Origin: a virus
Reading direction: 5' to 3' (one strand)
IMG/VR virus record: IMGVR_UViG_3300020473_000081
Span: 1 to 32,706 of that record
DNA: 32,706 nt
The translations under genes and the position numbers were made by a program. The notes beneath the pieces are model-generated. The model searched no databases. It had not been told where the DNA came from and saw only the letters and a list, made by a program, of their open reading frames with translations. This document shows, in pieces, positions 15,983-32,680 of this stretch; the stretch's first letter is position 1, and each line of letters begins with the position of its first letter.

Positions 15983-18900
15983 TAGATCGTGAAGGTTACG
16001 TTAGAAGCGACGGAATCAGGTTTGTCTATAATAATTTCAGATACTCTTACCACATATGCTTTATTTGCTAGTGGAGTAAATCTAAGTTGTGAACTTGTAC
16101 CTGCCACAAGCATATCTGTAGCACGAATATCACGTTTAGGATCAGCAGCAGTGGATAAATTATTGTATTTTGAATAGTTGCTATTACCACCGTAACAGTT
16201 TGATGCAACTATAAAGACAGAATATTTATCGTCCGTTGTATTATGTATTTCCACATGATATCTGGCAGATGTATAAGTATTGAAATTCTTAGATGATATA
16301 ACTGTTGCAACAGGTGATCCAGTAGCAACTATAGTTGTTTTACTTCCATCTAACCTAGAATCACCAACTTCAATACCTGCGATAGGTATTCCTGTACCAG
16401 CAACAGTTGTAGCAACACCAACAACTGATGTAAGAGTTGAGACTGTTACTGCTTGATTAGCAGGTGCTGTGAAATTCAGTTTCAATACATTGCTAGTAAC
16501 AGTTGGAAGGAATGTTCCACAATCTGTTCCAGCATCCATAGTACCAAAGTTAGTATATTGTAAGTTATTAGCACCATCTACTAAGAATGTGTACTCATCA
16601 ATTTCTTTCTCACCTGTTATTTTAGCAGCAACTGTAATAGATCCAGACTTGAACTTAGTTGAATCAATATCAAGAATACTCTTTGTAGCAGGTGAAGCAG
16701 CAGAAGGTATAGCAGAAGTAACACCAACCTTCTTAAGGTTTCCGTGAGATGTTAGACCTGTACCAACAGAATCACCCATAACTTCCTTATAGAAAGTAAT
16801 ATCATAAGTGTAGACATTATTGTAAGGTGTGAAGTTTACAGAACAAACACCACCATTAGTAGAAGTAGAAAACTCACCTAAGTCAAAGGCATCAGAAACT
16901 TCTGAATAGGTGTTCATAAATCCTATGGTGCCATCATGAGAAGCAACAAACTCTGAATATTGAGTGATGTTGTAACTTATTCCTAATGAAGTATCAAGAA
17001 CAACCTGTGCATAATATTTGATAGCAGTAACAGAACCCATATCAAACTGATCAATTTCTACAGTTTGAATTAGATCAGGATCATTATAGAAATCTGGACT
17101 AATATCATCTATCTCCAAAACTCTATTAGTCTTACATAAGATAGAATCACCTGCTCTGAATGAGTTGAATACTATCTCATTACTCAATGATTGTAATGAA
17201 TCAGTATTTTCATGTACAAGGTCATGGTGATGCTTACAATCAATATCTGAATATGAGTTTATCAATACAACATTATCTGTAGCAGTAGAAGTACCAACCT
17301 GAACACTAGCACCAGTACCAACAGGTTCTGAATTGATTAGTAGATCAGAATGTTTCTTGAATCCAGCGATATGTGCCAGTGAATCAACTGGTTCACTCCA
17401 AGAAGATATGCCAACAAAACTCTTCAGTGAATATGCAAAGTTTTGATAGTAATCATTATCTTGTACTCTTTGATAGAACTCACTAAGTTTACCAGTATCT
17501 TTCTCCCATCCAAATCTTTTCTCTATCGTACTATCAACTTCAAAGTGACCTTCATAATCATCCATTGATTCAATAGTACCACCAGCAAGAGAATATCTAC
17601 CTCTTACTTTATCTCCTGTATTCAATCCAACTAAACTACTTACACGTAAAACACTTAGTTTCTTACCATTTCCTGTAATAACATTGACATCATCAGTCAA
17701 TGGTTCACCATCTAAGAATTGACCCTCACGTAGATTTAGTTTGAACTTAGCAATATCCTTATCATTAGATACAGATCCAAACTTCTGGAAATCATGGAAA
17801 CCAGGATCATTATCTACAGCATAAGTCAGTGTAGCAGAATCAATTTGTCCAAAGGCAGTATTGATACCTGTTAGTACAAAACTAGTGTACTCATGATCTG
17901 CAGAGTTGAAACCTAGTCCAGAACTTACACCAACATTCTCAACAAATACCTTATCACCTACAGCAAATGGTAATGGATTTGTTGTAGTAAATCCTGTATT
18001 AGGTGTCTGTAATTTTAGAGTTACATTAGGAGCAGAATATGTTGCACTTACAATACCAACTCCATTACTGTTATCTACAGCAAATAATTCACTATCACCA
18101 CTTGCTAAATTACCACCTCTACTAATAATTCTAACAGAACCAACTGCACCACCATTCAGTTCTACTGAGAACTTAGCATCTTGGCTAGTAGTATTTGTCT
18201 TACTGTTATATACAACCAAATTAGGTGGTGTAACATACTTCTTACCAGTAGATGTTATAGCAACACTATCTACAGCAAAGTTATCTTTCAGGAATACTAC
18301 CTGTGACACTTCTGCTTCTGGTCTTAATGTTTTATCTGAAGGATAGTCATATCCAAAATCAATAATCCGTACATTACTCAAAGCACCAATATTTGATCCA
18401 AATGAAGAGAATAACGCAGATGATCCAGTTGTAGATGCTACTGAAACATTAGGAAGATCTTCATATGAAAGTCCTCCAGATGTTAGTCTTACTTTACCAA
18501 CTCCACCTGTTACATTCTTAGATGTAGTTCTACAAGTTAATTGAGAAATACTGGTATATCCTACTCTTTCTGGTTTATCAAATATATTGAATTGATATGT
18601 ATTAGCAGTAACACTAGTAATACTATGTCTACCTGTGTACTTACTTGTATTGACTATTATCTTAGAATAATCAACAATATCCTTATTAATCTCTATAACA
18701 TCTGTTCCTTGAATAGTTGACAACTTGTAGTATAGAACTGATGGAACTTGTTCTGTAAAATGTACTCTTGTCTTACCACCAGTAATACCTGGTTGTATTG
18801 GAGTAGTAACTTCTATAGTAGATGCACCAGATCCAACAAACTGCTTCTGATAGTCTTGATCTAAGAAGAATTCTAACTTCTTATCTGCAAGAGTATTACT

Positions 18901-21900
18901 TGAGGTATCAAACTCTAAAGTGTCACCTATAGTAACATTTAGAGGTGGATTGACAGAAGAACCTATACTTACAAACCTTGTAACAGAATTGTAAGTTATA
19001 GCCACTGCACTGGTAGCAGAAGAAACAACTGTAAGATCTATAACATCATCAGGTCTTAGAGTATGGTTCTCTTTCGTAGTTACTGCAACACCAACCATCT
19101 CAATGGTTCCTGTTATAGCACCTCTGTTTGTCTTGAAGAAGTGAGTATTACCAATACCAGTGTTAGTGTCAAACATAACACGTTGTAGATCAGATCCAAT
19201 ACCACTCTGTGTAGTAACAATACCAATAGTATCGTTAGTAAGAACCTGAACAAAAACTTCAGGAGGTAATGGTGATTTAAATCCAGTATTGACATCTTTC
19301 ATAGCAGGTGTCTGGTATGTCAATGATGTACCAGCACCAGGTGAGTATGTAAGTCTCTCACCCTGTCTAAACTGATGAGGTATAAAGATAGACCTTGTAG
19401 GTATATTCTTAGATTGAGATCTTACTGTGATTGTATGAGCAATGCCAGGTCCGAATGTTAATCCTATACCAACATCATTAGCAGCATCAAAGTAAGTGAC
19501 TACATCACTTGGTGTATCTAAATCAACCGTATTCTGAAGATCGTAAGTGAATTCTTTTTCTAATCTTACAATATTAGATCCGAATGTATGTGCAGCAGCA
19601 ACTGAACCGTTTTGTGCTCTTATGAGTTGTAGTTTATTATTGAAAGTATCAAAACCATAAATCTTCAATTGCTCCGAATTGATAAGAACAATATCATCTA
19701 TTTGGAATTTATTATCTCTAGTTACATCTGGAAGATACTCACTTAGTAATATGCTAGTAGTTGCACCTACAGCATCCATAGTAATTCCAAGACCAGTTCT
19801 AACATCCCTTGAACTTAATTTTGTTATAGCCTCAAGTCCAGTATGAGTATCTGTTGATATACCAGATATTCTTACATATGATTGATTTGATATACCATGA
19901 GGAGTAGTAGTAAATCCAATAACTTTACCAGCACTAGTAGTAAGAACTACATCATTGAAAGTTGTAATCTGGGTTGAGAAAGAATCTATCGCTGGAGCAA
20001 CTAGTTCAACAACATCACCTATAGCACCAAAACCATCAGTATCAGTATTATCAAATACTAAGTTGTCACCAACGTTATAATTATCACCACCATCAATAAT
20101 ATTAACTTCCTCTAAAGAACCATCACTTATACCCAAGACTTGTGCATTGATTAATGTATGTTTTGATCCATTAGAAACGAACTCATACTCAGGAATATTG
20201 TATGAATTAGTATTTCTTACAAGACCCAACTTTACAGGATCTAACTTTTGATTAGTATCATCGTCAATATTATATTCATCTAATTCTGAATGATAACTAT
20301 CACCTACAATATATGGAAACTCAGGTTTTCTTACACCATTGAAAGGATCTGATGGATTGGAAGTTACATTTGCATTGACAGTTGTATAATATGCATATAC
20401 ACCGTTTGGATATTCTGGTGTAGCAGCAAATCTACCATTATGTTCATCCAGATCTCCAAAACCTTCACTATAAGTAAAGTCTTCTACAAAGAATCCAGCA
20501 GGGAACTTAGTTATACTAGGACCATCAGGTCTTTGACCAGATAACGGTCTATAACTTGACTCTATGTACTTTAGTGCACCATTTACATTTGCATAAGGAC
20601 CGTAGATAGGATTACCATCATAAGCATATCCTAAGATAGGAGAATGTGTTAGTCCAACATCACCTTTGAAGTCTCTAAGGTTTCTTGGAACGTAATAGTT
20701 TACATATGGGTTGCCATTGTCTTTTGCAATCTCATAGAAACCATCATCATCTTTGACATCTCCAAATTTAGCATATCTTTCAACCTGATTTACAGTCCAT
20801 GTCTTGATTTTACTAGAGAATATAGAATCTTTACCTGGTGTTTTAGCAACACATGTTGTACCTGCTTGGGTATATCCCATACCCTTATCAATCATATTGA
20901 TACTTGTTATCTTACCACCAGCAATTATAGCCTTTGCTTTAGCACCTGTACCATCACCAGTTATAATAATATCTGGAGTACTAAAGAAATTCTTACCACC
21001 ATCTTTTAGGATAATTTGTTCAATATGTCCATTACTGATCAGAGGTTGTAGATATGCATCTTTACCAATCACAATATCTACAGAAGGTACTAATTTATCA
21101 TTGATAACAGTAGATCCATAACCAGTACCACCAGTTTCTACATGTACCCCAATAATCTTACCTCGTACAATTGGACTCGCTGATGCAGCAGATGTTGTTA
21201 TTCCTTGTCTACCATCTATCTCAATTGATATAGGAGGATCTTGGAATGTATGACTACCAGCACCAGAATTTGATATACTTACTAGATCTGATAAATCTTT
21301 TTTGGTTGATAATCTAAATGAGTCATTATCTATCTTATCAACATAATATTCTGTATTATTTGTTAAGTTTCCAGCAACACTAGCAGCAGAATACTTAACA
21401 ATTTCTCCAGAATCAAAACCATGGCTAGGAATATTGATTGTATCAATGTGGTGATTTATAAAAGATGAAGGAATAGTAAGACTTCTATTCTTAACTGTAC
21501 CACCATTTACAACAAGAACCTTGTCAACTATTTGTCTCCTATCTGTAGTTGTAAACTTCTGAATACCTCCACCATTTGTAGTGAATGGAACTGAATTAAT
21601 ACCAGCAAGAGCACTAGCCTCAGTCTCTGCTAGATGAATACTGAAATCATCTAACTTGATAACAAAATAAGGTGCAGAATCTACTAAGTTACCTGGTGTT
21701 ATTCCAATACCTATTTCTGTGGTTCCACCAGATGAATATATTATCTTCTCACCATTCTTGAATCCATGAGGAGTTGAGAATACACATCTATCAGTATGTG
21801 TATTGACAATACCACCAGATGAAGTACTATCAAATTCAACCTCTTGTGGTTGAATTTTCATCTTTGCTTCTATTATAACATCTTTACTATTACCACCAAT

Positions 21901-24165
21901 GAAATTGACATTAGGAATTTCTTCATAATCAAGTCCCTTACCATCAACTAAAACTTCCGTTATTGTACCTTCAACTTGTGTTGTACATATTGCAGAAGTA
22001 ACTCCAGTAGTATGTCCATCCTGTACAATAGACAAAGTAGGTGGATTGACTACATCATATCCTGAACCTTGATTCAGTACCTCTACAGAAAGTAGAGGAC
22101 CATGATAAACTTTATCAGTTGATTTATATGAATATGCTTCTACACCATTAGCAAATAATCCTATTGGTCCTTGAATGGTATTTGTCTTTACATCTCCAAA
22201 TTCAGGTTTCTTGAATCTTCTAAGAATCTTCTGTGCACCAAGATCAGTACCATAAACGACCTGTGGGGTCAATGTATGAGTTGATACACCTATTATGTCA
22301 TCAGCGTCAAATACGTTGATAAACTGCCCTCTACGGACGTTATCTGCAGAGTATGCTAACGACAGTGTATTGATATCATGTGATTTGACATAGTATGGAA
22401 CATTATCATCTAAATTTGATAAAGTTCCTATACCTGAAACATACGAATATACAACTAAATCACCATCATTGAAATTATGATTAGGTGATGTTAGTCTAGT
22501 TGTAGTTGCTCCAACACCAATATTATTAAATGTTCTTATTCGTTTCTGAGGATCAATATCCCAATGAGGTAAACTGTTAGATGCGACATATACCTCGTCA
22601 TTATTAGAATAACTGTTTTGTACATCAGCAGTATACCCAAGTTGGGTTTTTATATTCCTTCTGAAATAATATGTTTTAGTAGTATCTAAAACAACAGTAC
22701 TAACTTCTATCTTATTATCTGATATAATATCTGTGATAGTACCTGATGACACTGCATTATCAGGATCTACGATGTCAATCGTGTCACCAACAAATAAATC
22801 ATGTGATTGGTTTAGTGTAAATCTATAACTACCAGGTGCAATAATATCAATTCCATAAAGACCATACTTAGATGCAGTGTTATGAATAAAGGTTGTCCAT
22901 CTAGGATCTTTTTGTTTCTTACCTAAACTCTTTACATTGATACTACTCTCTTCTTGTTGATTTATAGCATTTCCAACAAAATTACTAAGAACACCTAAGA
23001 CATTTAGATCTACTCTCTTAGCAAGATTACCATTCTCATATGAGTAAGCGGTTAGACCAGCAGTTACAGTTGATCCAATACCACAAGGCGAAGTTATACT
23101 TGATACACCTAAGAACTGTGTATAATTCTTATCAGTATAGGTAAATGTCCTATCCTCAAAACTTAGTGTACCACTAGTATCAAACCCAACAGTAGAGTCA
23201 ACATTGAGAATAGTTCCGAATGCAGGTGTACTCTTTGTTAGGAAGGTTTTACCTACTTGCTCAAATTTACCAACAGTTGTTCCTTTAGATAAAGCAACTT
23301 TATAATATGTTTTTCCACCAGCAAGATAACGTTCTACACTGTAGATAGATCCACTAGTTTGTATAGGTGTAGTATCCTGTATTAGACTCTGACCCTCAAT
23401 ACTTAATGCATCACCACTTACTACATCACATACTAAAACATCATTTACAATATAATCAGCATCTGATGGTCTTACTAAAAACTTAGATGGTTGAATCATC
23501 TCAACTGGTTCACCATACAGTGCACCAAATAATATCTTAAATGCTTCTTCTGTACCCTTAGACTTATAGAAATCTTTTGCTTGTCTAATAAAATTAGACT
23601 GGTTCAATTCCTCGTTTAGAGGTCTCTCAGAGAAACCTGGTAAGAATTGTACCTTGAGTTTCTTTAGAAACTCCTTTAGAAATATATTACTAAGATTTGT
23701 TACCCTTGATTCTGCTTGATGTGTTCCAATACCTGTTTTAGTAAATGTAAGGTATTCTGGAGCATTAGTCTTACTATTTTTCTCTATACCACTAAAACCC
23801 CTAACACAACCCGTGAAAGAGGTAGATCCAATACCAGTATAAGTTATTATCTCATCATTTATCTTTAGTAGACCCCACTGCTTAGGCCAACCCTTCGTAG
23901 AATCAACATATATCGTATCAACCAAACCATTTGCATAAGAAGTCGTGGATGTAAATCCAGTCATCACCTCATTATTAATATAATCAAGACTCTTATACTC
24001 AACAAGATTATCAGCGATATCGATTGCACCGCCTTGAAACTCTTGAGAAAAATAGTATTGTTTTAGAAATTCACCAAAGAAAGGATTTTCAGAATCAATA
24101 TACTGAGGTACTTGACTTTGAATTACTTCGTTAATCTTTACTTTTGTGAATGATGTTGTAATCAT
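15982..24165 (-). CDS. Giant gp7-like baseplate structural protein with internal YHYH-like domain (2727 aa)
   Basis: 2727 aa. Near the N-terminus (residues 188-230), NQSNFIRQAKDFYKSKGTEE followed by FKILFGALYGEPVEM matches a segment of the T4 gp7 C-terminal part (ARFFESRSYDFYSTKGIEAS, then YKFLFKVLYNEEVEI). In T4, gp7 is the wedge initiator that binds gp10 and gp8. Residues about 1170-1275 resemble a YHYH domain (HSPILGYAYDGNPIYGP, DEHNGRFAATPEYPNGVYAY). The rest is a chain of beta modules: HGF..GE.V.YS units and GGTGY/GSGYDVVNPP units. Its place directly after gp6 fits gp7 order in T4. Its start lies 22 nt after the gp6 stop. Assignment as gp7 equivalent is likely but rests on one segment plus synteny. 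Confidence 0.8.
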   Translation of the reverse strand: MITTSFTKVKINEVIQSQVPQYIDSENPFFGEFLKQYYFSQEFQGGAIDIADNLVEYKSLDYINNEVMTGFTSTTSYANGLVDTIYVDSTKGWPKQWGLLKINDEIITYTGIGSTSFTGCVRGFSGIEKNSKTNAPEYLTFTKTGIGTHQAESRVTNLSNIFLKEFLKKLKVQFLPGFSERPLNEELNQSNFIRQAKDFYKSKGTEEAFKILFGALYGEPVEMIQPSKFLVRPSDADYIVNDVLVCDVVSGDALSIEGQSLIQDTTPIQTSGSIYSVERYLAGGKTYYKVALSKGTTVGKFEQVGKTFLTKSTPAFGTILNVDSTVGFDTSGTLSFEDRTFTYTDKNYTQFLGVSSITSPCGIGSTVTAGLTAYSYENGNLAKRVDLNVLGVLSNFVGNAINQQEESSINVKSLGKKQKDPRWTTFIHNTASKYGLYGIDIIAPGSYRFTLNQSHDLFVGDTIDIVDPDNAVSSGTITDIISDNKIEVSTVVLDTTKTYYFRRNIKTQLGYTADVQNSYSNNDEVYVASNSLPHWDIDPQKRIRTFNNIGVGATTTRLTSPNHNFNDGDLVVYSYVSGIGTLSNLDDNVPYYVKSHDINTLSLAYSADNVRRGQFINVFDADDIIGVSTHTLTPQVVYGTDLGAQKILRRFKKPEFGDVKTNTIQGPIGLFANGVEAYSYKSTDKVYHGPLLSVEVLNQGSGYDVVNPPTLSIVQDGHTTGVTSAICTTQVEGTITEVLVDGKGLDYEEIPNVNFIGGNSKDVIIEAKMKIQPQEVEFDSTSSGGIVNTHTDRCVFSTPHGFKNGEKIIYSSGGTTEIGIGITPGNLVDSAPYFVIKLDDFSIHLAETEASALAGINSVPFTTNGGGIQKFTTTDRRQIVDKVLVVNGGTVKNRSLTIPSSFINHHIDTINIPSHGFDSGEIVKYSAASVAGNLTNNTEYYVDKIDNDSFRLSTKKDLSDLVSISNSGAGSHTFQDPPISIEIDGRQGITTSAASASPIVRGKIIGVHVETGGTGYGSTVINDKLVPSVDIVIGKDAYLQPLISNGHIEQIILKDGGKNFFSTPDIIITGDGTGAKAKAIIAGGKITSINMIDKGMGYTQAGTTCVAKTPGKDSIFSSKIKTWTVNQVERYAKFGDVKDDDGFYEIAKDNGNPYVNYYVPRNLRDFKGDVGLTHSPILGYAYDGNPIYGPYANVNGALKYIESSYRPLSGQRPDGPSITKFPAGFFVEDFTYSEGFGDLDEHNGRFAATPEYPNGVYAYYTTVNANVTSNPSDPFNGVRKPEFPYIVGDSYHSELDEYNIDDDTNQKLDPVKLGLVRNTNSYNIPEYEFVSNGSKHTLINAQVLGISDGSLEEVNIIDGGDNYNVGDNLVFDNTDTDGFGAIGDVVELVAPAIDSFSTQITTFNDVVLTTSAGKVIGFTTTPHGISNQSYVRISGISTDTHTGLEAITKLSSRDVRTGLGITMDAVGATTSILLSEYLPDVTRDNKFQIDDIVLINSEQLKIYGFDTFNNKLQLIRAQNGSVAAAHTFGSNIVRLEKEFTYDLQNTVDLDTPSDVVTYFDAANDVGIGLTFGPGIAHTITVRSQSKNIPTRSIFIPHQFRQGERLTYSPGAGTSLTYQTPAMKDVNTGFKSPLPPEVFVQVLTNDTIGIVTTQSGIGSDLQRVMFDTNTGIGNTHFFKTNRGAITGTIEMVGVAVTTKENHTLRPDDVIDLTVVSSATSAVAITYNSVTRFVSIGSSVNPPLNVTIGDTLEFDTSSNTLADKKLEFFLDQDYQKQFVGSGASTIEVTTPIQPGITGGKTRVHFTEQVPSVLYYKLSTIQGTDVIEINKDIVDYSKIIVNTSKYTGRHSITSVTANTYQFNIFDKPERVGYTSISQLTCRTTSKNVTGGVGKVRLTSGGLSYEDLPNVSVASTTGSSALFSSFGSNIGALSNVRIIDFGYDYPSDKTLRPEAEVSQVVFLKDNFAVDSVAITSTGKKYVTPPNLVVYNSKTNTTSQDAKFSVELNGGAVGSVRIISRGGNLASGDSELFAVDNSNGVGIVSATYSAPNVTLKLQTPNTGFTTTNPLPFAVGDKVFVENVGVSSGLGFNSADHEYTSFVLTGINTAFGQIDSATLTYAVDNDPGFHDFQKFGSVSNDKDIAKFKLNLREGQFLDGEPLTDDVNVITGNGKKLSVLRVSSLVGLNTGDKVRGRYSLAGGTIESMDDYEGHFEVDSTIEKRFGWEKDTGKLSEFYQRVQDNDYYQNFAYSLKSFVGISSWSEPVDSLAHIAGFKKHSDLLINSEPVGTGASVQVGTSTATDNVVLINSYSDIDCKHHHDLVHENTDSLQSLSNEIVFNSFRAGDSILCKTNRVLEIDDISPDFYNDPDLIQTVEIDQFDMGSVTAIKYYAQVVLDTSLGISYNITQYSEFVASHDGTIGFMNTYSEVSDAFDLGEFSTSTNGGVCSVNFTPYNNVYTYDITFYKEVMGDSVGTGLTSHGNLKKVGVTSAIPSAASPATKSILDIDSTKFKSGSITVAAKITGEKEIDEYTFLVDGANNLQYTNFGTMDAGTDCGTFLPTVTSNVLKLNFTAPANQAVTVSTLTSVVGVATTVAGTGIPIAGIEVGDSRLDGSKTTIVATGSPVATVISSKNFNTYTSARYHVEIHNTTDDKYSVFIVASNCYGGNSNYSKYNNLSTAADPKRDIRATDMLVAGTSSQLRFTPLANKAYVVRVSEIIIDKPDSVASNVTFTI

Positions 24166-24187: not shown

Positions 24188-26071
24188 TTACCCTCTTATT
24201 TTCTCGCCATTTGTGTAACTAGACTGAATATTGAATCTAGTACCAGATGTATTAGCACCCGAAGCGATAGAGTCTTCTCTCATATAGAAATTGCTATTAG
24301 CAACAGAGAATTGTAAATACAACTCTTTTCTTGCAAGAACATCATTTGATTCAGGTATTGCTTGCACTTCAACGATGTTATTTGGTTTTACGGTACTAGT
24401 TATATTCGCAGTATTGATAAGGACTTCACCCTTTTTATAATCAACAGTTCCAAAAGTAGTTGAAATTACTTTTGCTGTATTGTCAGCTTCAAGACTGAAT
24501 AAGAATATATTACCCTTAGTTGTTCCTTCTACACGTATATCAGAGAAGTAAACAGTATCAGATATACCACTTACAGTAAATCCAGTAGATTTGATGTTAT
24601 AAGCATCTCCTCCTATATGGAATTCATTATCATAACATAGTTCATATTGCGTAAATTGATTGATCTGTGCATATAAATTTCTTCTTATTCTTACAGTAGT
24701 AATATTTGAAGTAATTGTAGTGCTTACATTATCAATAAGTGAAAGAACTTTACTATATTTGAATCTACCACCAAATTTATTCAATTCAGGTCCAGATGCA
24801 AATGATGTTAATGAATTAATAACATCAGTCTTCATATTCTCAGGATCTCCTACAAAGTTTGCATTGTAGTAAATCCAACTATCAATTTCTACAAATAAGA
24901 ACTTCAAGTCAACCATAGTAGGTAAAATACCTGCTACTGAATAGTTCTTTAGAGAACTAAGTATTTGTTTCTTAGTAAACTCAGATAAGAATGATCCATT
25001 CTTAGGTTTAGCAGCAATGTAAACCTGACCATATCTAGGAGGAGTAAGTTCCTCACCACCAAAAGCACTTATAGATTCTATATTGGGATATACAGAAGGT
25101 ACAATTGCTTCGTAATCACTTGCAGTAACTGCCCTATGTTGTGTTGAGTATAACCTAGGAGCATAGTATCTAATACTCTGCAAATTCTCTATATCGTCAC
25201 CATTTTCACTAATATAATTGGGAATAATGATCGCAGTAAAATCACTTATTGTTGCATCGTTCTCATCAGACAATGTACCAGTAAATGTTAGACGTGAAAC
25301 ACCATTACCATCCTTACCATTAGTCTTGATGTATGAAACATCAACAACATTACCATTGGTTAGTTTATTACCGAATATACCATCACCAAATAAGATTTCA
25401 TATTTCTCATCAGTTGTTTCCTGAATCAAATAGATCTTAGATGTAGACGTAATACCAAGTATATTATCAACTAACGCATATTCTTCAATTGTTGTACTTG
25501 AGGCATTTTCCCTTACGTTGACACGTATAGTTGAGGTATCAATACCATCGTTAGGTAAAATGAACCTCTGATTCGGTTGAGAGTCATCGATAATAAATGT
25601 ATTGGACAAATATTGTCCTTGAAATACCCTAATGATACCTTCAGCTTCACCATTAAGTGCAGTTCCAGTAACCTGTTCAGGTATAGAAAAGACATAGTTT
25701 ATACTATCAACATTACCATTACCAATAATACCTGGTTCAAATTTTAGAGTAGTAGTTGCTGCAGGTAAGTCAGATATGTTATAACTGACATCTGTTACTG
25801 CTGCTCTTCTTGACCTAGGAACATATCCTATATTTCTTGCTAATGATACTACATTCTCTCTCAAAGTTGCACTATCAATGAAAGTCTCATTGACAACCAT
25901 ATTGGTATTATATGCTGTACTATATGAGTTGTACGCTAATAGATTGATTAATACGGACAGATTAGATCCCTCAAAGTCCATATCAGTGAAATTAGAGTTT
26001 TCTCTGATATAATCTTTGATGGAACTTTTTATATCCTCAAAATTTAAATTTGTAAATTGTTGCAGTGCCAT
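24188..26071 (-). CDS. gp6: Baseplate wedge subunit gp6
   Basis: 627 aa, close to T4 gp6 (660 aa). The N-terminal part FEDIKSSIKDYIRENSNF, DMDFEGSNLSVLINLLAYNS and TLRENVVSLARNIGYVPRSR aligns with T4 gp6 (YDFEGSRLNVLCDLLAYNT, LRSSVVQAAQDNGYLPTSK). The middle EKYEILFGDGIFGNKLTNG is a typical baseplate J-like segment, followed by SIRYYAPRLYSTQHRAVTAS, also conserved in gp6/gpJ proteins. gp6 forms the continuous ring that joins the six wedges around the hub. The ATG shares a base with the gp25 stop (TAATG), so translation is coupled. Confidence 0.93.
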   Translation of the reverse strand: MALQQFTNLNFEDIKSSIKDYIRENSNFTDMDFEGSNLSVLINLLAYNSYSTAYNTNMVVNETFIDSATLRENVVSLARNIGYVPRSRRAAVTDVSYNISDLPAATTTLKFEPGIIGNGNVDSINYVFSIPEQVTGTALNGEAEGIIRVFQGQYLSNTFIIDDSQPNQRFILPNDGIDTSTIRVNVRENASSTTIEEYALVDNILGITSTSKIYLIQETTDEKYEILFGDGIFGNKLTNGNVVDVSYIKTNGKDGNGVSRLTFTGTLSDENDATISDFTAIIIPNYISENGDDIENLQSIRYYAPRLYSTQHRAVTASDYEAIVPSVYPNIESISAFGGEELTPPRYGQVYIAAKPKNGSFLSEFTKKQILSSLKNYSVAGILPTMVDLKFLFVEIDSWIYYNANFVGDPENMKTDVINSLTSFASGPELNKFGGRFKYSKVLSLIDNVSTTITSNITTVRIRRNLYAQINQFTQYELCYDNEFHIGGDAYNIKSTGFTVSGISDTVYFSDIRVEGTTKGNIFLFSLEADNTAKVISTTFGTVDYKKGEVLINTANITSTVKPNNIVEVQAIPESNDVLARKELYLQFSVANSNFYMREDSIASGANTSGTRFNIQSSYTNGEKIRG

Positions 26072-26475
26072 TATAATCTTGTTGGTTCGAGTATAAAGTT
26101 GACGGTTTGTGTTGGTGACGATAAACCAACAATATCGTATTCTATGCTTATATCCAAAGCATTATCATCAGGAGTTGCCTGAACACCTATTCCTGTCAAT
26201 CTGACTCTGGGTTCATGATTAGTGATAGTTAGTTCTATCTCTGTTCTTATAGGATCAACAAAATCTGAGGTTGCAAGTTCAAATAAAGAACCCTCAATCC
26301 TAGTACCAATCAACCTATTGAAGAATATTTCACCTACCTGTATACGCACCAAATTTTGCACAGCCCGCTTTATAGCGTCTTCATTTTTCAAGACGAGTAT
26401 GTCATTAGTAACAGGATGTCTTTTGAAGGATAACGAAATATCCTTAAAACCCCTTGAAAATGTTTGTGCTGGCAC
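26071..26475 (-). CDS. gp25: Baseplate wedge subunit gp25
   Basis: 134 aa, almost the same size as T4 gp25 (132 aa). It has the gpW/gp25 family pattern: a start with FSRGFKDISLSFKRHPVTN, the central GEIFFNRLIGTRIEGSLFE and the later TITNHEPRVRLTGIGVQATP, equivalent to T4 AVRNYEPRIDKLAVNVIPV. gp25 clamps the sheath-proximal end of the wedge and primes sheath assembly. The start is a GTG at 26475, with only a weak TGGAAA purine run upstream. Two late-promoter octamers lie about 20-35 nt upstream, making this the first gene of the baseplate transcription unit. Confidence 0.92.
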   Translation of the reverse strand: MPAQTFSRGFKDISLSFKRHPVTNDILVLKNEDAIKRAVQNLVRIQVGEIFFNRLIGTRIEGSLFELATSDFVDPIRTEIELTITNHEPRVRLTGIGVQATPDDNALDISIEYDIVGLSSPTQTVNFILEPTRL

Positions 26476-26517: not shown

Positions 26518-26703
26518 TTAATAGTCATCTTCATGACCAAGATACTTTACTTCTACAGTATCTGGATGAGGGTAACCAACGGAGTAAAATTCATCTGCTA
26601 GTTCTTGAGTGATATCTAGCATTTCATCTTCATCTATTCCTTCTCTGATGATTACTCCCTCAACGTAAATATTATACAACTCGTGCATCGTTGAGATAGT
26701 CAT
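26518..26703 (-). CDS. Small acidic protein of unknown function (61 aa)
   Basis: 61 aa, acidic (EGIDEDEMLDITQELADEFY in the middle). It begins MTISTMHELYNIYVEGVIIR and ends KYLGHEDDY. No known motif is recognised. It lies between an intrinsic terminator (upstream side) and the tandem late motifs (downstream side), so it may belong to its own short transcript. A second Met at residue 6 is an alternative start. Length, strand and codon pattern are consistent with a real gene; small proteins of this kind are frequent beside cyanophage gp25. Confidence 0.65.
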   Translation of the reverse strand: MTISTMHELYNIYVEGVIIREGIDEDEMLDITQELADEFYSVGYPHPDTVEVKYLGHEDDY

Positions 26704-26717
26704 TTTTGACTATGTAT

Positions 26718-26744
26718 AAAAAAAGGATCCCTTTAGAGGATCCT
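26718..26744 (-). terminator. Intrinsic terminator overlapping the glycosyltransferase stop codon
   Basis: A 7-bp stem AGGATCC/GGATCCT (26738-26744 and 26724-26730) with a 7-base loop is followed on the minus strand by a run of T to 26718. The TAA stop of the upstream glycosyltransferase-like gene lies in the loop. This separates the glycan-modification genes from the baseplate block. Confidence 0.75.
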
Positions 26745-27485
26745 CATCTTTTCGTGTCCTACTCTTGCCTTAGGATCACACCATATTTCAAAACCTGCTT
26801 TTATTGCATCTAAACAGAAAGAAACATCTTCACCACACATATCTTGAACTTCCCCTGATTCAAATACCTGCATTTGAGGAGCAAACCAAGGATACTTCAT
26901 CTCTTCATGTTCAAATATACCTTTTTTGATAAGCAACCAACCAAACCCTGCATAATCAACAGTAAAAGGTTTACGTCTCTTAGTAATGCCATCTAACATC
27001 TCATGGTTCATTACACCACCATTTTCTTTGAAATCACCTTCTTCTAACCAATGTGCTACTGATGATGTATTTCCATCTTCAGTTACATACCAACCAGAGG
27101 CAATATCCTTGTTCATACAAACAAGACGATAGAACTGTTCAATACCAAAAACAATATCACTATCAATCCATAACTGATAATCATACGTCAACTTACCATC
27201 CCAAGGAAGTTGGTCTGGTCCTCGTAGAACATTTGCACCTAGACACTTACATCGTGCAAAGTTCACCATTGAACTGTAGTCTTGTGATATCTGTATACTT
27301 GCTCCTTGCTGTACCAACTCAAAACAGAGTGATACGAAATTCTTGAGGTATGTGTATGAGACTCCTCTACCTGGTAGACAAAAGACAACGCTTTTGCCTT
27401 TGATCATTTCTCTTCCTTTTTCTAAAGAGTAATCATCCTTATCTGCAGTTGGTGATTTAGAAACCACCTTAAATCCTTTTGCCAT
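26733..27485 (-). CDS. Glycosyltransferase-like protein, GT-A type (250 aa)
   Basis: 250 aa. The N-terminal VVFCLPGRGVSYTYLKNFVS resembles the start of a nucleotide-sugar-binding fold. YQLWIDSDIVF places a DSD (DxD) metal/nucleotide motif at residues 108-110, and the C-terminal GEDVSFCLDAIKAGFEIWCD plus VGHEK is typical of GT-A glycosyltransferases (acidic catalytic region at 219-220, His 244). AGFGWLLIKKGIFE in between is the usual acceptor-side segment of phage and viral members. It probably transfers a sugar onto a glycan or protein; donor and acceptor are unknown. It lies 22 nt downstream of the first SGNH gene and ends in an intrinsic terminator. A promoter-like element precedes it. No signal peptide is seen, so it acts in the cytoplasm. 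Confidence 0.75.
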   Translation of the reverse strand: MAKGFKVVSKSPTADKDDYSLEKGREMIKGKSVVFCLPGRGVSYTYLKNFVSLCFELVQQGASIQISQDYSSMVNFARCKCLGANVLRGPDQLPWDGKLTYDYQLWIDSDIVFGIEQFYRLVCMNKDIASGWYVTEDGNTSSVAHWLEEGDFKENGGVMNHEMLDGITKRRKPFTVDYAGFGWLLIKKGIFEHEEMKYPWFAPQMQVFESGEVQDMCGEDVSFCLDAIKAGFEIWCDPKARVGHEKMRIL

Positions 27486-27506
27486 AACTAAGTGTCAGTC
27501 ATATAC

Positions 27507-27536
27507 ATTATAACAGATTATATAGGTAGTCTGCAA
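27507..27536 (-). promoter_or_regulatory. Candidate sigma-70-type promoter before the glycosyltransferase gene
   Basis: On the minus strand TTGCAG (27536-27531) and TATAAT (27512-27507) are separated by 18 bp, and the -10 lies 21 nt upstream of the ATG at 27485. The region is AT-rich, so a chance match is possible. It overlaps the 3' end of the SGNH gene. Confidence 0.35.
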
Positions 27537-28107
27537 CCCTCTTATGTCCAAGTTGAGATAAGTGACCTCTAGGTCTCCAATTTTCATCCTGACCCCAAAA
27601 ACCACGTTTTCCTTTTCCTACTATTTTCTTGATACTATGCAATTTGAAATCTGAAATATCATAGAAGTAACAATCACCCTTACACCATTTTCTAGGTTCT
27701 ACACTCCAATGTATTACTTTTATATTCTTCATCCTACAATATGAATCAACAAGTAATATATTCTTCCACATGTTCTCATTATCTAATCTAGAATTTTGAA
27801 ATGATGTGTAAAATATTTTTGATATTGGTTTAGTTATTGCCCTACCATCCTTGTATACTTGAGGTATGATACCTTCTACCATACCTGAATCGTAAAAATG
27901 CTCTCTTCTGTTCTTATATGTCCATTGCATTATCACTTGGTCAACATCATGATCCTTTAGATGCATCAATGTTCTTCTAGCGATATTATCATTACTAGAA
28001 GCACATTTAGAAATGTTTTCTGCTCCTAGTATTTCAGCATAAGTTTGTTCTCCTTCCTCTAATTCATCTCCCCAAGTGAAGGAACACCCATTACATAACA
28101 GTGACAT
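27508..28107 (-). CDS. SGNH/GDSL-type hydrolase-like protein A
   Basis: 199 aa from the chosen ATG at 28107; an ATG at 28134 would add nine residues (MLDYLSTST). I prefer the shorter form because the two related proteins in this window begin just ahead of the same motif. It opens MSLLCNGCSFTWGDELEEGE with the block I Ser in GCSF. SSNDNIAR supplies a candidate oxyanion-hole Asn, and GHLSQLGHKRVADYL at the end carries the catalytic-type His. The Asp normally three residues before that His is absent. The family includes esterases and O-acetyl transferases or esterases acting on glycans. It overlaps the carbamoyltransferase 3' end by 17 nt, suggesting coupled expression and a shared substrate. 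Confidence 0.68.
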   Translation of the reverse strand: MSLLCNGCSFTWGDELEEGEQTYAEILGAENISKCASSNDNIARRTLMHLKDHDVDQVIMQWTYKNRREHFYDSGMVEGIIPQVYKDGRAITKPISKIFYTSFQNSRLDNENMWKNILLVDSYCRMKNIKVIHWSVEPRKWCKGDCYFYDISDFKLHSIKKIVGKGKRGFWGQDENWRPRGHLSQLGHKRVADYLYNLL

Positions 28108-29476
28108 TGTACTTGTGCTCAAATAATCTAGCATCTTCGATGTTATTTACCATCGGTTTTCCTCTAACATTCAAAGATGTGTTTAGTAGAACTGGACAAC
28201 CTGTACGTTCGTACCATGCCTCCAGTATGGGTCTCAGGATGCTTTCAGACGTTTCTGGGACTGTTTGTACCCTAGCAGAGTTATCAACGTGTAAACAAGC
28301 AGGTATATCGTCCTGACGCTTGCATTGATAAGTATAAGACATATACCTAGAATGGTCAGGCATGTCAAAATAATCATGGCAATGCTCTTCCAGAATAGCA
28401 GGGGCAAATGGTCTGAATTTCTGTCTTTGCTTGATATCGTTAACGAGGTCTTTGGTTGAAATTTCTCTTGGATCCGCAAGTAGACTTCTGTTACCAAGAG
28501 CCCTAGGACCAAACTCTGCACGACCATTTGCAATACCAACGATCTTATTTTTGAGTAAGCACGATACCACCTCCTTCGGATTGACCTTACGCTTGATGTT
28601 ATAACCAAGGTAAGGTGAGAATTGAACTTTTGATCCATCTGCCAATAATGCTGCACCTAAGGCACCTCCAGCGTCTCCAGGACAAGGCATAATCCATAAA
28701 TTGCACCTTTCCCTAAGTTTTGTGTTTACAACACAGTTGAGAGCAACTCCACCCCCATAACAGATATTATCGCTATATTTCTTCGCTTTGTCAAATATTA
28801 TCTCTAATTCCTGTTGTAGTATCCTTTCCGCACTCTTAGCAACGTCATATACCCCATATGGGATTTCTTCTTTACGAATACCCTTATGATTGTTTTTATG
28901 TAAGAAACGTTCAACACAATTCATATAAACGGGATTTCCGAATGCTGCCATCCCCATAAAGATATATTCTTCATCTAACGGTTTCAAACCTGCCCATTTG
29001 GTCAATGCACTGTACCAAAGACCTATAGAGTTAGGATACTTCCTAGACCACACTTTTTTGTACTTTGCCTTACCATCAACCATTTTTGCAGTCCATATTG
29101 AACTACAATCCCATTCTCCGATAGAATCAACAACTACACACGCTGCTTCATCAAATGCCGACGTTTGGAACGCTGCAGCAGCGTGAGACTTGTGATGTTC
29201 GTGATATTCAGTTGGTTCTAGTGAATAATATCTTTCATTCTTTACAGTTTCAAATTGACCAGCAAATAACTGTCTACTCTTCTTCCAGAAGGGCATTTCG
29301 TAAAATGCCACTGTATCATCCTTTTGATAAGTCTTTGCTGCAATAATTGCACCTAAATCCAAATTCTTATCATGTTTCTTTTTTGAGTATCTTTCAGAGT
29401 GCGTTGCAAATGAAATTTTGCCATTATTGACTACGGCAATTGCAGCATCGTGAAATCCTTCAGAAAATCCAATCAT
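28091..29476 (-). CDS. NodU/CmcH/TobZ-family O-carbamoyltransferase
   Basis: 461 aa. The N-terminal Kae1-like part starts IGFSEGFHDAAIAVVNNGKI and has the metal-binding YHEHHKSHAAAAF at residues 91-103, VVVDSIGEW at 115-122 and YGGGVALNCVVN at 240-251. The C-terminal YrdC-like part has GRAEFGPRALGNRSLLADPR (318-337), FRPFAPAIL and NTSLNVRGKP. These enzymes use carbamoyl phosphate and ATP to make carbamoyl-adenylate and carbamoylate a hydroxyl on a sugar or antibiotic; NodU acts on Nod factor. All core motifs are present, so it is probably active. It is somewhat shorter than TobZ at the C-terminus. Start codon overlaps the stop of the 29-aa ORF (ATGA), and its end overlaps SGNH gene A. Confidence 0.93.
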   Translation of the reverse strand: MIGFSEGFHDAAIAVVNNGKISFATHSERYSKKKHDKNLDLGAIIAAKTYQKDDTVAFYEMPFWKKSRQLFAGQFETVKNERYYSLEPTEYHEHHKSHAAAAFQTSAFDEAACVVVDSIGEWDCSSIWTAKMVDGKAKYKKVWSRKYPNSIGLWYSALTKWAGLKPLDEEYIFMGMAAFGNPVYMNCVERFLHKNNHKGIRKEEIPYGVYDVAKSAERILQQELEIIFDKAKKYSDNICYGGGVALNCVVNTKLRERCNLWIMPCPGDAGGALGAALLADGSKVQFSPYLGYNIKRKVNPKEVVSCLLKNKIVGIANGRAEFGPRALGNRSLLADPREISTKDLVNDIKQRQKFRPFAPAILEEHCHDYFDMPDHSRYMSYTYQCKRQDDIPACLHVDNSARVQTVPETSESILRPILEAWYERTGCPVLLNTSLNVRGKPMVNNIEDARLFEHKYNVTVM

Positions 29477-29562
29477 TCTTCGTCTTCGTAGATATACGGA
29501 TCTTCACGTTTTAATTTCCAGAGTTTATACTCTCCATAGATCCAATTCCAGAGTTTTTTCAT
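29473..29562 (-). CDS. 29-aa coupled leader ORF upstream of the carbamoyltransferase
   Basis: ATG at 29562, TGA at 29473-29475, encoding MKKLWNWIYGEYKLWKLK followed by an acidic tail (REDPYIYEDEE). It is rich in Trp, Tyr and Lys, then Glu/Asp. The stop overlaps the ATG of the carbamoyltransferase by four bases. A CATAAATA late motif is 19 nt upstream. The overlap, the placement of the motif and the otherwise unexplained 114-base gap support a real gene. Function unknown; it could be a translational coupler or a small interaction peptide. Confidence 0.6.
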   Translation of the reverse strand: MKKLWNWIYGEYKLWKLKREDPYIYEDEE

Positions 29563-29581
29563 AGTTTTGATTAATGCGAGG

Positions 29582-29589
29582 TATTTATG
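29582..29589 (-). promoter_or_regulatory. Late promoter-like motif CATAAATA
   Basis: Minus-strand NATAAATA octamer 1 nt beyond the stop of SGNH gene B and 19 nt upstream of the 29-aa ORF. It would drive the 29-aa ORF, carbamoyltransferase and SGNH gene A, and possibly the glycosyltransferase up to the terminator at 26,718. Confidence 0.55.
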
Positions 29590-29590
29590 A

Positions 29591-30262
29591 CTAATTTTTG
29601 AACATTTTAGCAGTTTTTATGATAAACATCAAGTCTAACGCAATTCTCATGTGCCCTAATTCATTTGGATGCCTATATTTTGCTTTTGCGTATCTTTTAC
29701 CATTATTGAGTTGTAAAGTGTATTCTAATGGCGTAGAATCATCGGAAGTGAGTAAAGCAAGTGGAACATTGTTTACTTTGCAGTGATTCTTAATTGTAGT
29801 GTGTGCGATTTGTTCATATGCTCTTCCATACTGTTCTTGGTAGATGTTTTTATAATAGTAGTTCCAAAATTCTTTATCAATTGGTTTTATACCTTTTCTA
29901 ATTTCTTCTTCTCTACTCTTAGCTTTAAAGTCACCTCCATAGTCCACATCAGTCGCATTATGGATTGTTATATTAGTCCAACCCTTATTTTTCTTATTTT
30001 TCTTATTTTTTGGTACTCTATGCGGATCATAATACTCCAATCTCTCAGGAAAGGTTAATTGGATGATTGCAAGGTCATATTTGGTTATATCATTCTCTAC
30101 AAGCAGGTTACGAACGATTCTAGCATTACTAGCACTACATCTAGCAATATTATAAACTTCTGCCCCCATTTTGTTTCCAAGAAGGGTACTATACCTAGTT
30201 TTTTCAGGATCTTTCAGTTCTTGACCGTAACTGTAAGAACATCCATCAACATAAATTTTCAT
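29591..30262 (-). CDS. SGNH/GDSL-type hydrolase-like protein B (223 aa)
   Basis: Begins MKIYVDGCSYSYGQELKDPE, with the block I Ser at residue 9. CSASNARIVRNLLV has a candidate oxyanion Asn at 46, DLAIIQLTFPERLEYY is the central strand, and RHPNELGHMRIALDL (His 198, His 204) is the C-terminal catalytic block. No Asp occurs three residues before His 198. Residues 85-94 form a Lys/Asn tract from a 9-bp tandem repeat. It is similar in layout to the genes at 27,508 and 32,090, so the three form a paralogous group. Its start is 14 bp from the divergent plus-strand gene. Likely role: ester hydrolysis or acyl transfer on a glycan, by family inference. Confidence 0.72.
   Translation of the reverse strand: MKIYVDGCSYSYGQELKDPEKTRYSTLLGNKMGAEVYNIARCSASNARIVRNLLVENDITKYDLAIIQLTFPERLEYYDPHRVPKNKKNKKNKGWTNITIHNATDVDYGGDFKAKSREEEIRKGIKPIDKEFWNYYYKNIYQEQYGRAYEQIAHTTIKNHCKVNNVPLALLTSDDSTPLEYTLQLNNGKRYAKAKYRHPNELGHMRIALDLMFIIKTAKMFKN
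29984..30010 (-). repeat. Three tandem 9-bp repeats inside SGNH gene B
   Basis: The unit cttattttt (plus strand) occurs three times in a row and encodes KNKKNKKNK in the minus-strand protein. It is in frame, so copy-number changes would only lengthen or shorten a basic surface loop. Confidence 0.8.
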
Positions 30263-30276
30263 AGTCTATATATCAT

Positions 30277-31200
30277 ATGAAACCAACCCTTTTATTGAAT
30301 CCTGGTACAGGATGGGCTGCTACAACACCATTCTACTATACTTTAGCGTTAGATAACAAATTTACTCATGCAGGGCATCTAAAAGAGAACAGTTATCTGT
30401 ATACACTAAAAAATCCAGAATATGAATCTTATTTTCTTAAAAAGTGGGAGAAGAATCAAGATCAGCATCTAGTAAATGAAAATACACTAAATCATTTCTC
30501 TGATGAATACATGAATGACTTTATTAATGGTAAAAGGGATATAGACAAATATATTGATTACTATAAAAAGCATTTTGAAGAAATTGATAGACCTAGTGTT
30601 GCAGACTTCAGTAATTACAACCTATCAATGAAAGAAGATGATCTAAAATCAATTGCAGACAAATTAAGAGAACATTTCAACATAAAAGTGACTATGCAGT
30701 TCCGAGAACCTGTAAAAAGGTTTTTTTCAGAAACTGGATCTATAATATCGTTCAATAAGAACCGAAAATCATTATTGAATGTATATAAACAGGATTTGCG
30801 GATGACAATGCTCATAAGAGCACAAGATCACACTGGATTGTTTTTATATCGCATTAAAAAACGAGATTTCTCAAATCTTTGCTTTTATATGAAAAATTAC
30901 AAAAAATTTGCAAACGTTTTTGGTAGAGAAAACGTATTACCCATCATAATGGAGAAATTTTGGGATCCTGATCAATTCAAAGAGCAAACTGAGAGATTAT
31001 CTAACTTTTTGAATTTCAAAATTACCAAAATTCATGAAAATGCATATTTTCCAGATAAAGGTAACGAAGCACCCCAACTTGCAGGTCTACCAGACCAATG
31101 GAAGTCTGATATTGATAAATTGACAGACAAAGTGTATAATGAAGCTGCTGCAGTAATGAAAAATTTTATAATAGCATGGAAAGACCTACACTCCTACTAA
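30277..31200 (+). CDS. Sulfotransferase-like protein 1 (307 aa)
   Basis: 307 aa on the plus strand. The N-terminal LLLNPGTGWAATTPFYYTLA (residues 5-24) has the form of the 5'-phosphosulfate-binding loop of PAPS-dependent sulfotransferases. GHLKENSYL follows as in carbohydrate sulfotransferases. VTMQFREPVKRFFSETGS (138-155) corresponds to the 3'-phosphate motif, with Arg 143 and Ser 151 in the expected places. FGRENVLPIIMEKFWDPD and RLSNFLNF fit the later family pattern. It probably moves sulfate from PAPS to a glycan hydroxyl or amine. The last 25 nt overlap the start of a paralogue. It is divergent from SGNH gene B with a 14-bp gap, so its promoter must lie inside that gene. The loop is not a canonical GxxGT, so activity is uncertain. 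Confidence 0.72.
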   Translation: MKPTLLLNPGTGWAATTPFYYTLALDNKFTHAGHLKENSYLYTLKNPEYESYFLKKWEKNQDQHLVNENTLNHFSDEYMNDFINGKRDIDKYIDYYKKHFEEIDRPSVADFSNYNLSMKEDDLKSIADKLREHFNIKVTMQFREPVKRFFSETGSIISFNKNRKSLLNVYKQDLRMTMLIRAQDHTGLFLYRIKKRDFSNLCFYMKNYKKFANVFGRENVLPIIMEKFWDPDQFKEQTERLSNFLNFKITKIHENAYFPDKGNEAPQLAGLPDQWKSDIDKLTDKVYNEAAAVMKNFIIAWKDLHSY

Positions 31201-32132
31201 ATCCTGGTAGTGGATGGTCTGCTACAAGTCCATTCCTCTATACACTCGCACTTGACAACAAATATTGTCATCATGCTCATCAAAAAGAAAACTTTTATCT
31301 GAAATTACTTTCAGAACCAACTCAAGAGCGAGTTGAGCATGTAAGAAACATATTCATCGGTAAAAAGCAAAATAAAAGAAAACGAGATCATCCATTTGGT
31401 AGAGTTTTATCGCAAAGTAATGATTATGCGAAGAATTTAGACTTTACTGACTTCATTTCTGCACCATACAACCTCGATACGTATATTTCCTACTATAAAC
31501 AACACTATGAGAACATAAAACATGAATATCAGGCAGTTTGCGACTTCTCAAACGCAAATTTTAGTCTTCCTTTGTCATTTTTACAAGAAATTGCTCCAAA
31601 ATTACAAGAACACTTTGATATAAAGGTCACAATGCAGTTTCGTGACCCCATCAGACGGTACTTTTCTGAAATTGGGTCAATTATCAATGACAATCCGAAC
31701 GCAGCGACCAATTTCAAAGAACAATTGTTCATCAAAGCACGTAGACATCGCAAATTATTCTTTTATCGTCTTGAATCTAAGCATTTTTCAGATAACTGTA
31801 AATATTTGACTGCTTATTTGAACTACTCTTCTGTTTTTGGCAAAGAAAATGTCCTACCAATCATTATGGAGGACTTTTGGAGTGAAGATCAAACAGAGAT
31901 GTTGTCAGACTTCCTAAATTTCAAAATTACTGCGGTACATGAGAACGCATATGTACCAGATATGGGTAAAAATGCTCCGAAGTATGATTACTTGGAGGAT
32001 CAATGGTCATCAGACATCGAAAATCTAAACCCAGAGAAAGCAAAAGAGGCAATGAAGCACATGAAACACTATTATAGTGACTATAAAAATTATTTTGGCA
32101 GTATTCCTGAGAGATGGGAAGCAATAAGTTGA
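31176..32132 (+). CDS. Sulfotransferase-like protein 2 (318 aa)
   Basis: 318 aa, a clear paralogue of the preceding gene. It opens MERPTLLLNPGSGWSATSPF, has HAHQKENFYLKLL, and the 3'-phosphate motif VTMQFRDPIRRYFSEIGSII (Arg 156, Ser 164). FGKENVLPIIMEDFWSED, LSDFLNFKIT and VHENAYVPDMG match the first copy closely. It differs in a Lys/Arg-rich insert (KKQNKRKRDHPFG, about 63-75). The ATG lies within the 3' end of gene 1, in another frame, giving tight coupling. The 3' end overlaps the convergent SGNH gene C by 43 bp. Two diverged copies may sulfate different positions or acceptors; that is inference. Confidence 0.72.
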   Translation: MERPTLLLNPGSGWSATSPFLYTLALDNKYCHHAHQKENFYLKLLSEPTQERVEHVRNIFIGKKQNKRKRDHPFGRVLSQSNDYAKNLDFTDFISAPYNLDTYISYYKQHYENIKHEYQAVCDFSNANFSLPLSFLQEIAPKLQEHFDIKVTMQFRDPIRRYFSEIGSIINDNPNAATNFKEQLFIKARRHRKLFFYRLESKHFSDNCKYLTAYLNYSSVFGKENVLPIIMEDFWSEDQTEMLSDFLNFKITAVHENAYVPDMGKNAPKYDYLEDQWSSDIENLNPEKAKEAMKHMKHYYSDYKNYFGSIPERWEAIS

Positions 32133-32680
32133 TGTCCGAGAGGGGATGGGTGACCTTCTAACCAATATTTACCTCCATTCTTAGGATGACCAAGTAAATC
32201 TTGGTGTTGGAGCATATCAGACCATGATGTTAGGTCTTCATATACGCATTTCTCCAACTCATCACCTCTTTTATTAGCAAATCTCCAGAAGTAATGTGGA
32301 ATACCACGTTTTTTTAGGTATGATTCCATCACAAAAACGTTTTTCCAGAAGTTTGTATAGTGTAATTGGTTAGAACTGATCCATTTATAGTAATAACGAG
32401 GCACACTATTCGTAGGACTCACACTTCCTGGTGTATATGACCTCCATTTTCCTTTTGCCCAGTGAGAAAAACGTGTTACAAGCGTAAATTGTACAATTAC
32501 AAAGTCACAAGTGTTATTTTCTAACCATTCTATCGTTTCTTTAACAATCAAATCATTACATTTACCTGATTCTGCGAGATTTACATGCTCATGTCCAAGC
32601 AAATATGAGTATCTTTGCGTTTCTGGGTGCTCTAATTCCATACCATAGGTATGACTACACCCATTGAAGAATATTTTCAC
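32090..32680 (-). CDS. SGNH/GDSL-type hydrolase-like protein C (196 aa)
   Basis: 196 aa from a GTG start at 32680. It begins with KIFFNGCSHTYGMELEHPE (Ser 9), then SGKCNDLIVKETI with a candidate Asn at 42, DFVIVQFTLVTRFSHW as the central strand, and EGHPSPLGHQLIASHL (His 177, His 183) at the C-terminus. As in its paralogues, the Asp normally preceding the catalytic His is missing. Its final 43 bp overlap the end of sulfotransferase-like gene 2 on the other strand. The upstream region leaves the window after 26 bases, so its promoter is not seen. An alternative start further upstream cannot be excluded. Confidence 0.7.
   Translation of the reverse strand: MKIFFNGCSHTYGMELEHPETQRYSYLLGHEHVNLAESGKCNDLIVKETIEWLENNTCDFVIVQFTLVTRFSHWAKGKWRSYTPGSVSPTNSVPRYYYKWISSNQLHYTNFWKNVFVMESYLKKRGIPHYFWRFANKRGDELEKCVYEDLTSWSDMLQHQDLLGHPKNGGKYWLEGHPSPLGHQLIASHLSGILPK

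Follow-up and report, generated by a model that had tools for sequence, protein, structure and literature searches.

A hypervariable array of sulfotransferase-fold and SGNH genes beside a carbamoyltransferase and the baseplate genes in a group of related viral contigs

Hypervariable polysaccharide-type islands and host recognition clusters are described in pelagimyophages and cyanomyophages (PMC7029224), as are hot-spots and lipopolysaccharide clusters, including an accessory hot-spot between gp46 and gp25, in cyanophages (PMC3037559). Carbamoyltransferases have already been noted for such islands of marine T4-like phages (PMC7029224, PMC3037559); the main text of PMC7029224 mentions neither a sulfotransferase nor a carbamoyltransferase. 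Cultured cyanophages carry annotated single sulfotransferases, and a full-text literature search for a cyanophage with both a carbamoyltransferase and a sulfotransferase found none. In rhizobial Nod factor decoration, carbamoyl (NodU) and sulfate (NodH) chemistries are encoded together. Both chemistries may likewise be encoded together in the 32.7-kb virus record IMGVR_UViG_3300020473_000081 of IMG/VR, which in its full length of 32,706 nucleotides is called the window here and to which all coordinates refer. Positions 26733-32680 code for a probable glycosyltransferase (GT), an O-carbamoyltransferase of the NodU/TobZ/NovN type (CARB), two sulfotransferase-fold (ST) proteins and three SGNH proteins. 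The original prediction, made from the sequence of the window, had described a compact glycan-decoration cassette of seven genes, and all seven open reading frames (ORFs) are present where it had placed them.

To place the segment in context, we compared it with 71 viral contigs around CARB relatives at 66-98% identity. These contigs keep the order CARB-(SGNH)-GT-gp25-gp6-gp7 almost without change. CARB is preceded on its upstream side by an array with up to nine SGNH and up to eight ST paralogs per locus, in both orientations. Some arrays also hold radical SAM, 2-oxoglutarate oxygenase, aldolase, epimerase and HNH genes; among the arrays and their relatives, cargo of the sugar-pathway type includes an NAD epimerase, an HpcH/HpaI aldolase and a CMP-sugar cytidylyltransferase. 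The arrangement is not due to chance, as 71 contigs repeat it and the median ratio of nonsynonymous to synonymous substitution rates (dN/dS) between orthologs is 0.07-0.16. Gene content varies between syntenic core flanks, as in the hypervariable islands of marine T4-like phages. The window segment would then be one haplotype of a hypervariable array upstream of a conserved GT-gp25-gp6-gp7 baseplate block. The compact cassette is therefore an incomplete description: the enzymes are encoded together, but the GT is part of the conserved GT-gp25-gp6 block while the SGNH and ST genes are one state of the array. Like the described islands (PMC7029224, PMC3037559), the array is hypervariable, lies in or near structural modules and holds polysaccharide-type genes. 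It differs from them in consisting mainly of multiplied SGNH and ST paralogs fixed beside CARB-GT-gp25. As far as we searched, this composition, the fixed site and a clade of STs lacking the donor-loop lysine are undescribed.

In the window, the array upstream of CARB comprises SGNH protein 2 (29591-30262, minus strand), ST_30277 (30277-31200, plus), ST_31176 (31176-32132, plus) and SG_32090 (32090-32680, minus). Its counterparts turn over between close relatives. Pairs of loci at least 95% identical in CARB, GT and gp25 share on average 66% of their array genes, pairs at 90-95% share 20%, and below 80% identity hardly any array gene is shared. The extremes are L118/L119, 97.5% identical in CARB, GT and gp25 with a shared fraction of 0.10, and L048/L122, with 96.9% identical flanks and a shared fraction of 0.00. 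Contigs ending early lower some of these values; L118 and L119 hold 8 and 12 array genes. When L115 is compared with the window, the ortholog of ST_30277 directly adjoins SG_32090, ST_31176 is gone and another ST is in place. Array states that recur in many contigs are unlikely to come from metagenome misassembly, which may affect single cases. Within a locus the median identity of best paralog pairs is 31-35%, and the nearest relative is in another phage for 186 of 190 ST and 173 of 174 SGNH proteins. This low identity within loci, together with nearest relatives elsewhere, indicates shuffling of old paralogs and not fresh tandem duplication. The array genes are under purifying selection that is slightly relaxed relative to the flank genes, with a median ortholog dN/dS of 0.14 (ST) and 0.16 (SGNH) versus 0.07-0.11 for CARB, GT, gp25 and gp6. 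In longer related records, ST and SGNH copies also occur at several other sites, in part between fibre-type genes.

The identity of CARB (28091-29476, minus; 461 aa) as a carbamoyltransferase is certain from its sequence. It matches Carbam_trans_N (1e-33, 117.6 bits) and Carbam_trans_C (2e-53, 181.2 bits), both above the Pfam cut-off, in agreement with its predicted place in the NodU/TobZ superfamily. The N- and C-domain motif blocks of NodU/TobZ/NovN O-carbamoyltransferases are conserved in CARB too, but it is shorter than the solved relatives (576-702 aa) and scores 158.6 bits with the NCBIfam NodU equivalog, far under the cut-off of 1000 bits. The predicted analogy to Nod factors thus extends to the chemistry and no further: CARB reaches 159 of 1000 bits for NodU and, unlike in the rhizobial system, a chitooligosaccharide synthase is not among the seven genes. 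An SGNH gene directly adjoins CARB in 48 loci. In the window this is SG_27508 (27508-28107, minus), directly downstream of CARB, an ORF that was borne out with a likely start at 28107 rather than at the longest-ORF start, 28134. A 29-aa micro-ORF, MKKLWNWIYGEYKLWKLKREDPYIYEDEE (29473-29562, minus), leads into CARB and is conserved in 30 of the 71 related loci as well as in the window. It is rich in W and Y, with the consensus KKLWNWIxGEYKLWKL..DPYIYE. In 24 loci the gene directly upstream of CARB codes for a member of a protein family of about 355 aa (for example L149 8947-10014), and the one member tested had no Pfam match. Proteins of about 440 aa beside the cassette (L002 2585-3904, L115 3571-4935) look amidinotransferase-like by eye only, the L115 copy having no match in Pfam.

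The GT (26733-27485, minus) matches phrog_1574 at 1e-113. Its motifs D108-S-D110 (DxD), E219-D220 and H244 are at least 97% conserved in 71 sequences, as are more than half of its positions. These motifs and a weak match to a glycosyltransferase PHROG (1.3e-5) make the predicted GT-A-like glycosyltransferase probable, but profile searches of PDB and Pfam gave no match. GT relatives are found in 103 phage records, and cyanophages S-T4, Sf-CH8 and P-SSM2 have the GT-gp25-gp6 block without an array at that place.

The two window STs are 47% identical, and neither has a significant Pfam or NCBIfam family match of its own. The ST family profile matches the PDB sulfotransferase 3rnl (1.4e-9), and 6 of 48 family members match Pfam sulfotransferase families. 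An AlphaFold model (pLDDT 93.5) aligns with 3rnl and 1nst at Z 17.6; across 3rnl, NDST1 and the 3-OSTs Z is 15.6-17.6, the glycan N- and O-sulfotransferases (NDST1, 3-OST) ranking next after 3rnl. Profile search and confident models therefore agree with the original prediction in assigning the pair to the glycan-sulfotransferase fold. The 3'-phosphate-binding (3'-PB) motif, an R and an S at a spacing of 8, keeps its R in 96% and its S in 95% of 188 ST paralogs and is present in ST_30277 (REPVKRFFS) and ST_31176 (RDPIRRYFS). An invariant Glu and a KE motif are also kept, so that the fold, the RDPxxRxxS 3'-PB and the KE motif are shared with NDST1, 3-OST and the bacterial 3rnl. A role in anti-phage defence was considered and rejected, as ST_30277 has only a weak RmrA match (6e-4, 17 bits).

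The three SGNH proteins of the window likewise have no significant family match of their own, SG_27508 having a sub-threshold DUF6071 match (5e-6). Among 72 family members, 18 match DUF6071 and seven match Lipase_GDSL_2. The AlphaFold model (pLDDT 90.7) reaches Z 15.6 to GDSL hydrolases (4rsh), and Ser, Gly, Asn and His are conserved at 97, 90, 99 and 98% in 171 relatives. The confident models and these residues support the predicted GDSL/SGNH fold for all three. Fold (Z up to 15.6) and the four residues are common to TesA, carbohydrate esterases, PatB and DUF6071. Unlike the SGNH/GDSL enzymes compared, the array proteins mostly have GCS instead of GDS in block I and are stand-alone proteins of about 200 aa in multicopy arrays.

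Two different queries for the ST family, run against 50,697 phage records, led to a single one of them, the uncultured virus AG-345-D19. No relative came up when ST_31176 alone served as query; relatives were retrieved with an alignment that included AG-345-D19. For the genome scan, profile A5 was too diverse and profile A1 served. It gave one match, L185, a contig in a Rhodospirillaceae metagenome-assembled genome, in a pattern scan that was not exhaustive. L185 codes for a ThyX-like protein, split carbamoyltransferase genes and one ST (compare L191). Judged by its genes it looks viral, so that this non-exhaustive pattern scan identified no cellular source of the STs.

From the observed folds, conserved active-site positions, synteny, turnover and purifying selection, we infer enzymatic activity, acceptor and benefit as follows. 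Our preferred reading, to which we give slightly less than even chances, is a hypervariable glycan-decoration array of cytosolic enzymes acting most likely on host surface polysaccharide. None of the seven proteins shows a transmembrane-like segment and all look soluble. In the cytosol CARB would add carbamoyl and the ST pair, if active, sulfate onto sugar hydroxyls, where the SGNH trio would probably add acyl groups, or remove them. Each ST or SGNH paralog may have its own acceptor site. Phages would exchange, gain, lose and invert array genes between constant flanks, so that each lineage would carry a different decoration set. The acceptor would be polysaccharide of the host surface or the cytosolic precursors of that polysaccharide, and its modification in the course of infection would alter the binding of receptor or competitor. 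One fixed GT with many variable decorators suggests an acceptor of changing structure that the phage does not build, like host polysaccharide. We consider this target slightly more likely than the virion. Fast enzyme swapping in near-identical viruses also hints that surface sugars are the object of an arms race. A further reading, a combinatorial glycan code, is less likely than not: a pool of acceptor-specific STs and SGNH acyl-enzymes would be shuffled beside the baseplate genes to give each lineage its own sulfate, acyl and carbamoyl signature, with the STs binding their donor without the loop lysine. If the array acts as proposed, uncultured open-ocean cyanophages vary surface-sugar chemistry by swapping enzyme genes and not by mutating fibres, and such swapping would be one way in which host specificity and competition could change fast.

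Several results weigh against host polysaccharide decoration by active enzymes. The lysine of the loop binding the sulfate donor 3'-phosphoadenosine-5'-phosphosulfate (PAPS), the 5'-phosphosulfate-binding loop, distinguishes NDST1, 3-OST and 3rnl from the STs, in which this position is W (70%), F (17%), H (8%) or Y (3%) and K in about 0%; the window loops are GTGWAAT (ST_30277) and GSGWSAT (ST_31176). Sulfate transfer is therefore not assured and, with no Lys or Arg in this loop, we describe the STs as having the sulfotransferase fold and not as proven PAPS enzymes. The distant relative in AG-345-D19 has the canonical loop PKSGTT. The lysine-less STs may have altered donor binding or may have lost activity, with strong conservation elsewhere in the protein arguing against decay. 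This clade with its altered donor loop is open to direct testing. A search of five related records (three over 118 kb, one of 192 kb), with positive controls, detected no adenosine-5'-phosphosulfate (APS) kinase, so phage-made PAPS was rejected and PAPS would need to be supplied by the host. In the SGNH family the aspartate of DxxH is not conserved and the residue at H-3 is mixed. Some carbohydrate esterases use a Ser-His dyad. With H-3 mixed and a dyad possible, we do not claim hydrolase activity, and the reaction may be either acyl transfer or hydrolysis. Lastly, the virion as a target agrees as well or better with two observations: the window has a late promoter, and in L186 and L188 STs lie between two tail-fibre-type genes.

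Virion decoration is the strongest alternative, a possible but less probable one. Here the GT, acting in the cytosol, would place a glycan on a baseplate or fibre protein, and the CARB, ST and SGNH enzymes would modify this glycan, so that the tail surface would be lineage-specific. The GT is highly conserved and fixed beside gp25 in cyanomyoviruses, and an ST gene lies beside a fibre-type gene in AG-345-D19 also. However, the array slot is part of the accessory hot-spot that cyanophages have between gp46 and gp25 (PMC3037559), so proximity says little, and one GT with many decorators is a poor fit to a simple self-made glycan. The original prediction had argued for the virion from a late promoter. 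A T4-type late-promoter-like element, CATAAATA (29582-29589, minus), is indeed present 25 nt upstream of the micro-ORF and heads the micro-ORF-CARB-SGNH-GT segment, its motif and position being shared with micro-ORF loci (-25 to -30 in 12 of 31). The motif is not general, which weakens the argument: NATAAATA precedes gp25 in 61 of 69 loci, but GT in 0 of 70, ST genes in 7 of 180 and SGNH genes in 6 of 167, about 4% of SGNH and ST genes. Timing thus bears on some haplotypes only. A search for 6-mers over-represented ahead of the array genes yielded no clear shared promoter, the top-ranking words resembling coding repeats such as the micro-ORF.

It is improbable that what the enzymes decorate is not a surface glycan but a small molecule or a secreted metabolite resembling a Nod factor or an antibiotic. 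The solved CARB relatives TobZ, GdmN and the novobiocin enzyme do act on small molecules, but the array has no scaffold synthase, its enzyme numbers change too fast for one defined product and the best-characterised ST matches are polymer-acting enzymes. Slightly less probable still is a mainly selfish array, in which recombination or HNH homing would propagate paralogs of no strong benefit. Turnover is fast, and an HNH endonuclease is encoded among the SGNH genes in 14 loci, adjoining at least one SGNH gene in all 14, making it a possible homing-type driver; against this, purifying selection acts on the array and active-site residues are near-invariant over 171 SGNH and 188 ST divergent paralogs. 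The HNH genes include L117 4125-4523, L118 1741-2139 and L122 7596-7994, plus those of 11 more loci. Phage DNA-modification systems also include carbamoyltransferases, glycosyltransferases and 2-oxoglutarate oxygenases, but carbamoyl, glycosyl or other groups on DNA bases are a very unlikely product, as the folds of the ST and SGNH proteins suggest action on sugars and esters; Tet_JBP had no match in five related records, nor in any control genome.

The flank of the array consists of gp25 (26071-26475, minus), with two AATAAATA elements upstream, gp6 (24188-26071, minus) and, adjoining gp6, a giant baseplate-region protein (15982-24165, minus). The last is placed like gp7 of P-SSM2, and its family is found in 53 related loci. 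Between GT and gp25 a conserved 61-aa protein of phrog_3252 is encoded (26518-26703, minus), and in Kyanoviridae a similar small ORF also adjoins GT. psbA was detected in two related records, making cyanophage hosts likely for the clade while not establishing the host of the window itself. P-loop proteins (GPQGSGNHLxxxxFSLH) are encoded near fibre-type genes, often with STs (L186 6141-6776 and 11191-11871; L188 11413-12820). The window also encodes further baseplate and fibre-type genes, among them a partial repeat-rich fibre-type protein of 885 aa with an open end (3-2657, minus). Two plus-strand ORFs antisense inside it (526-861 and 874-1692) are probably spurious.

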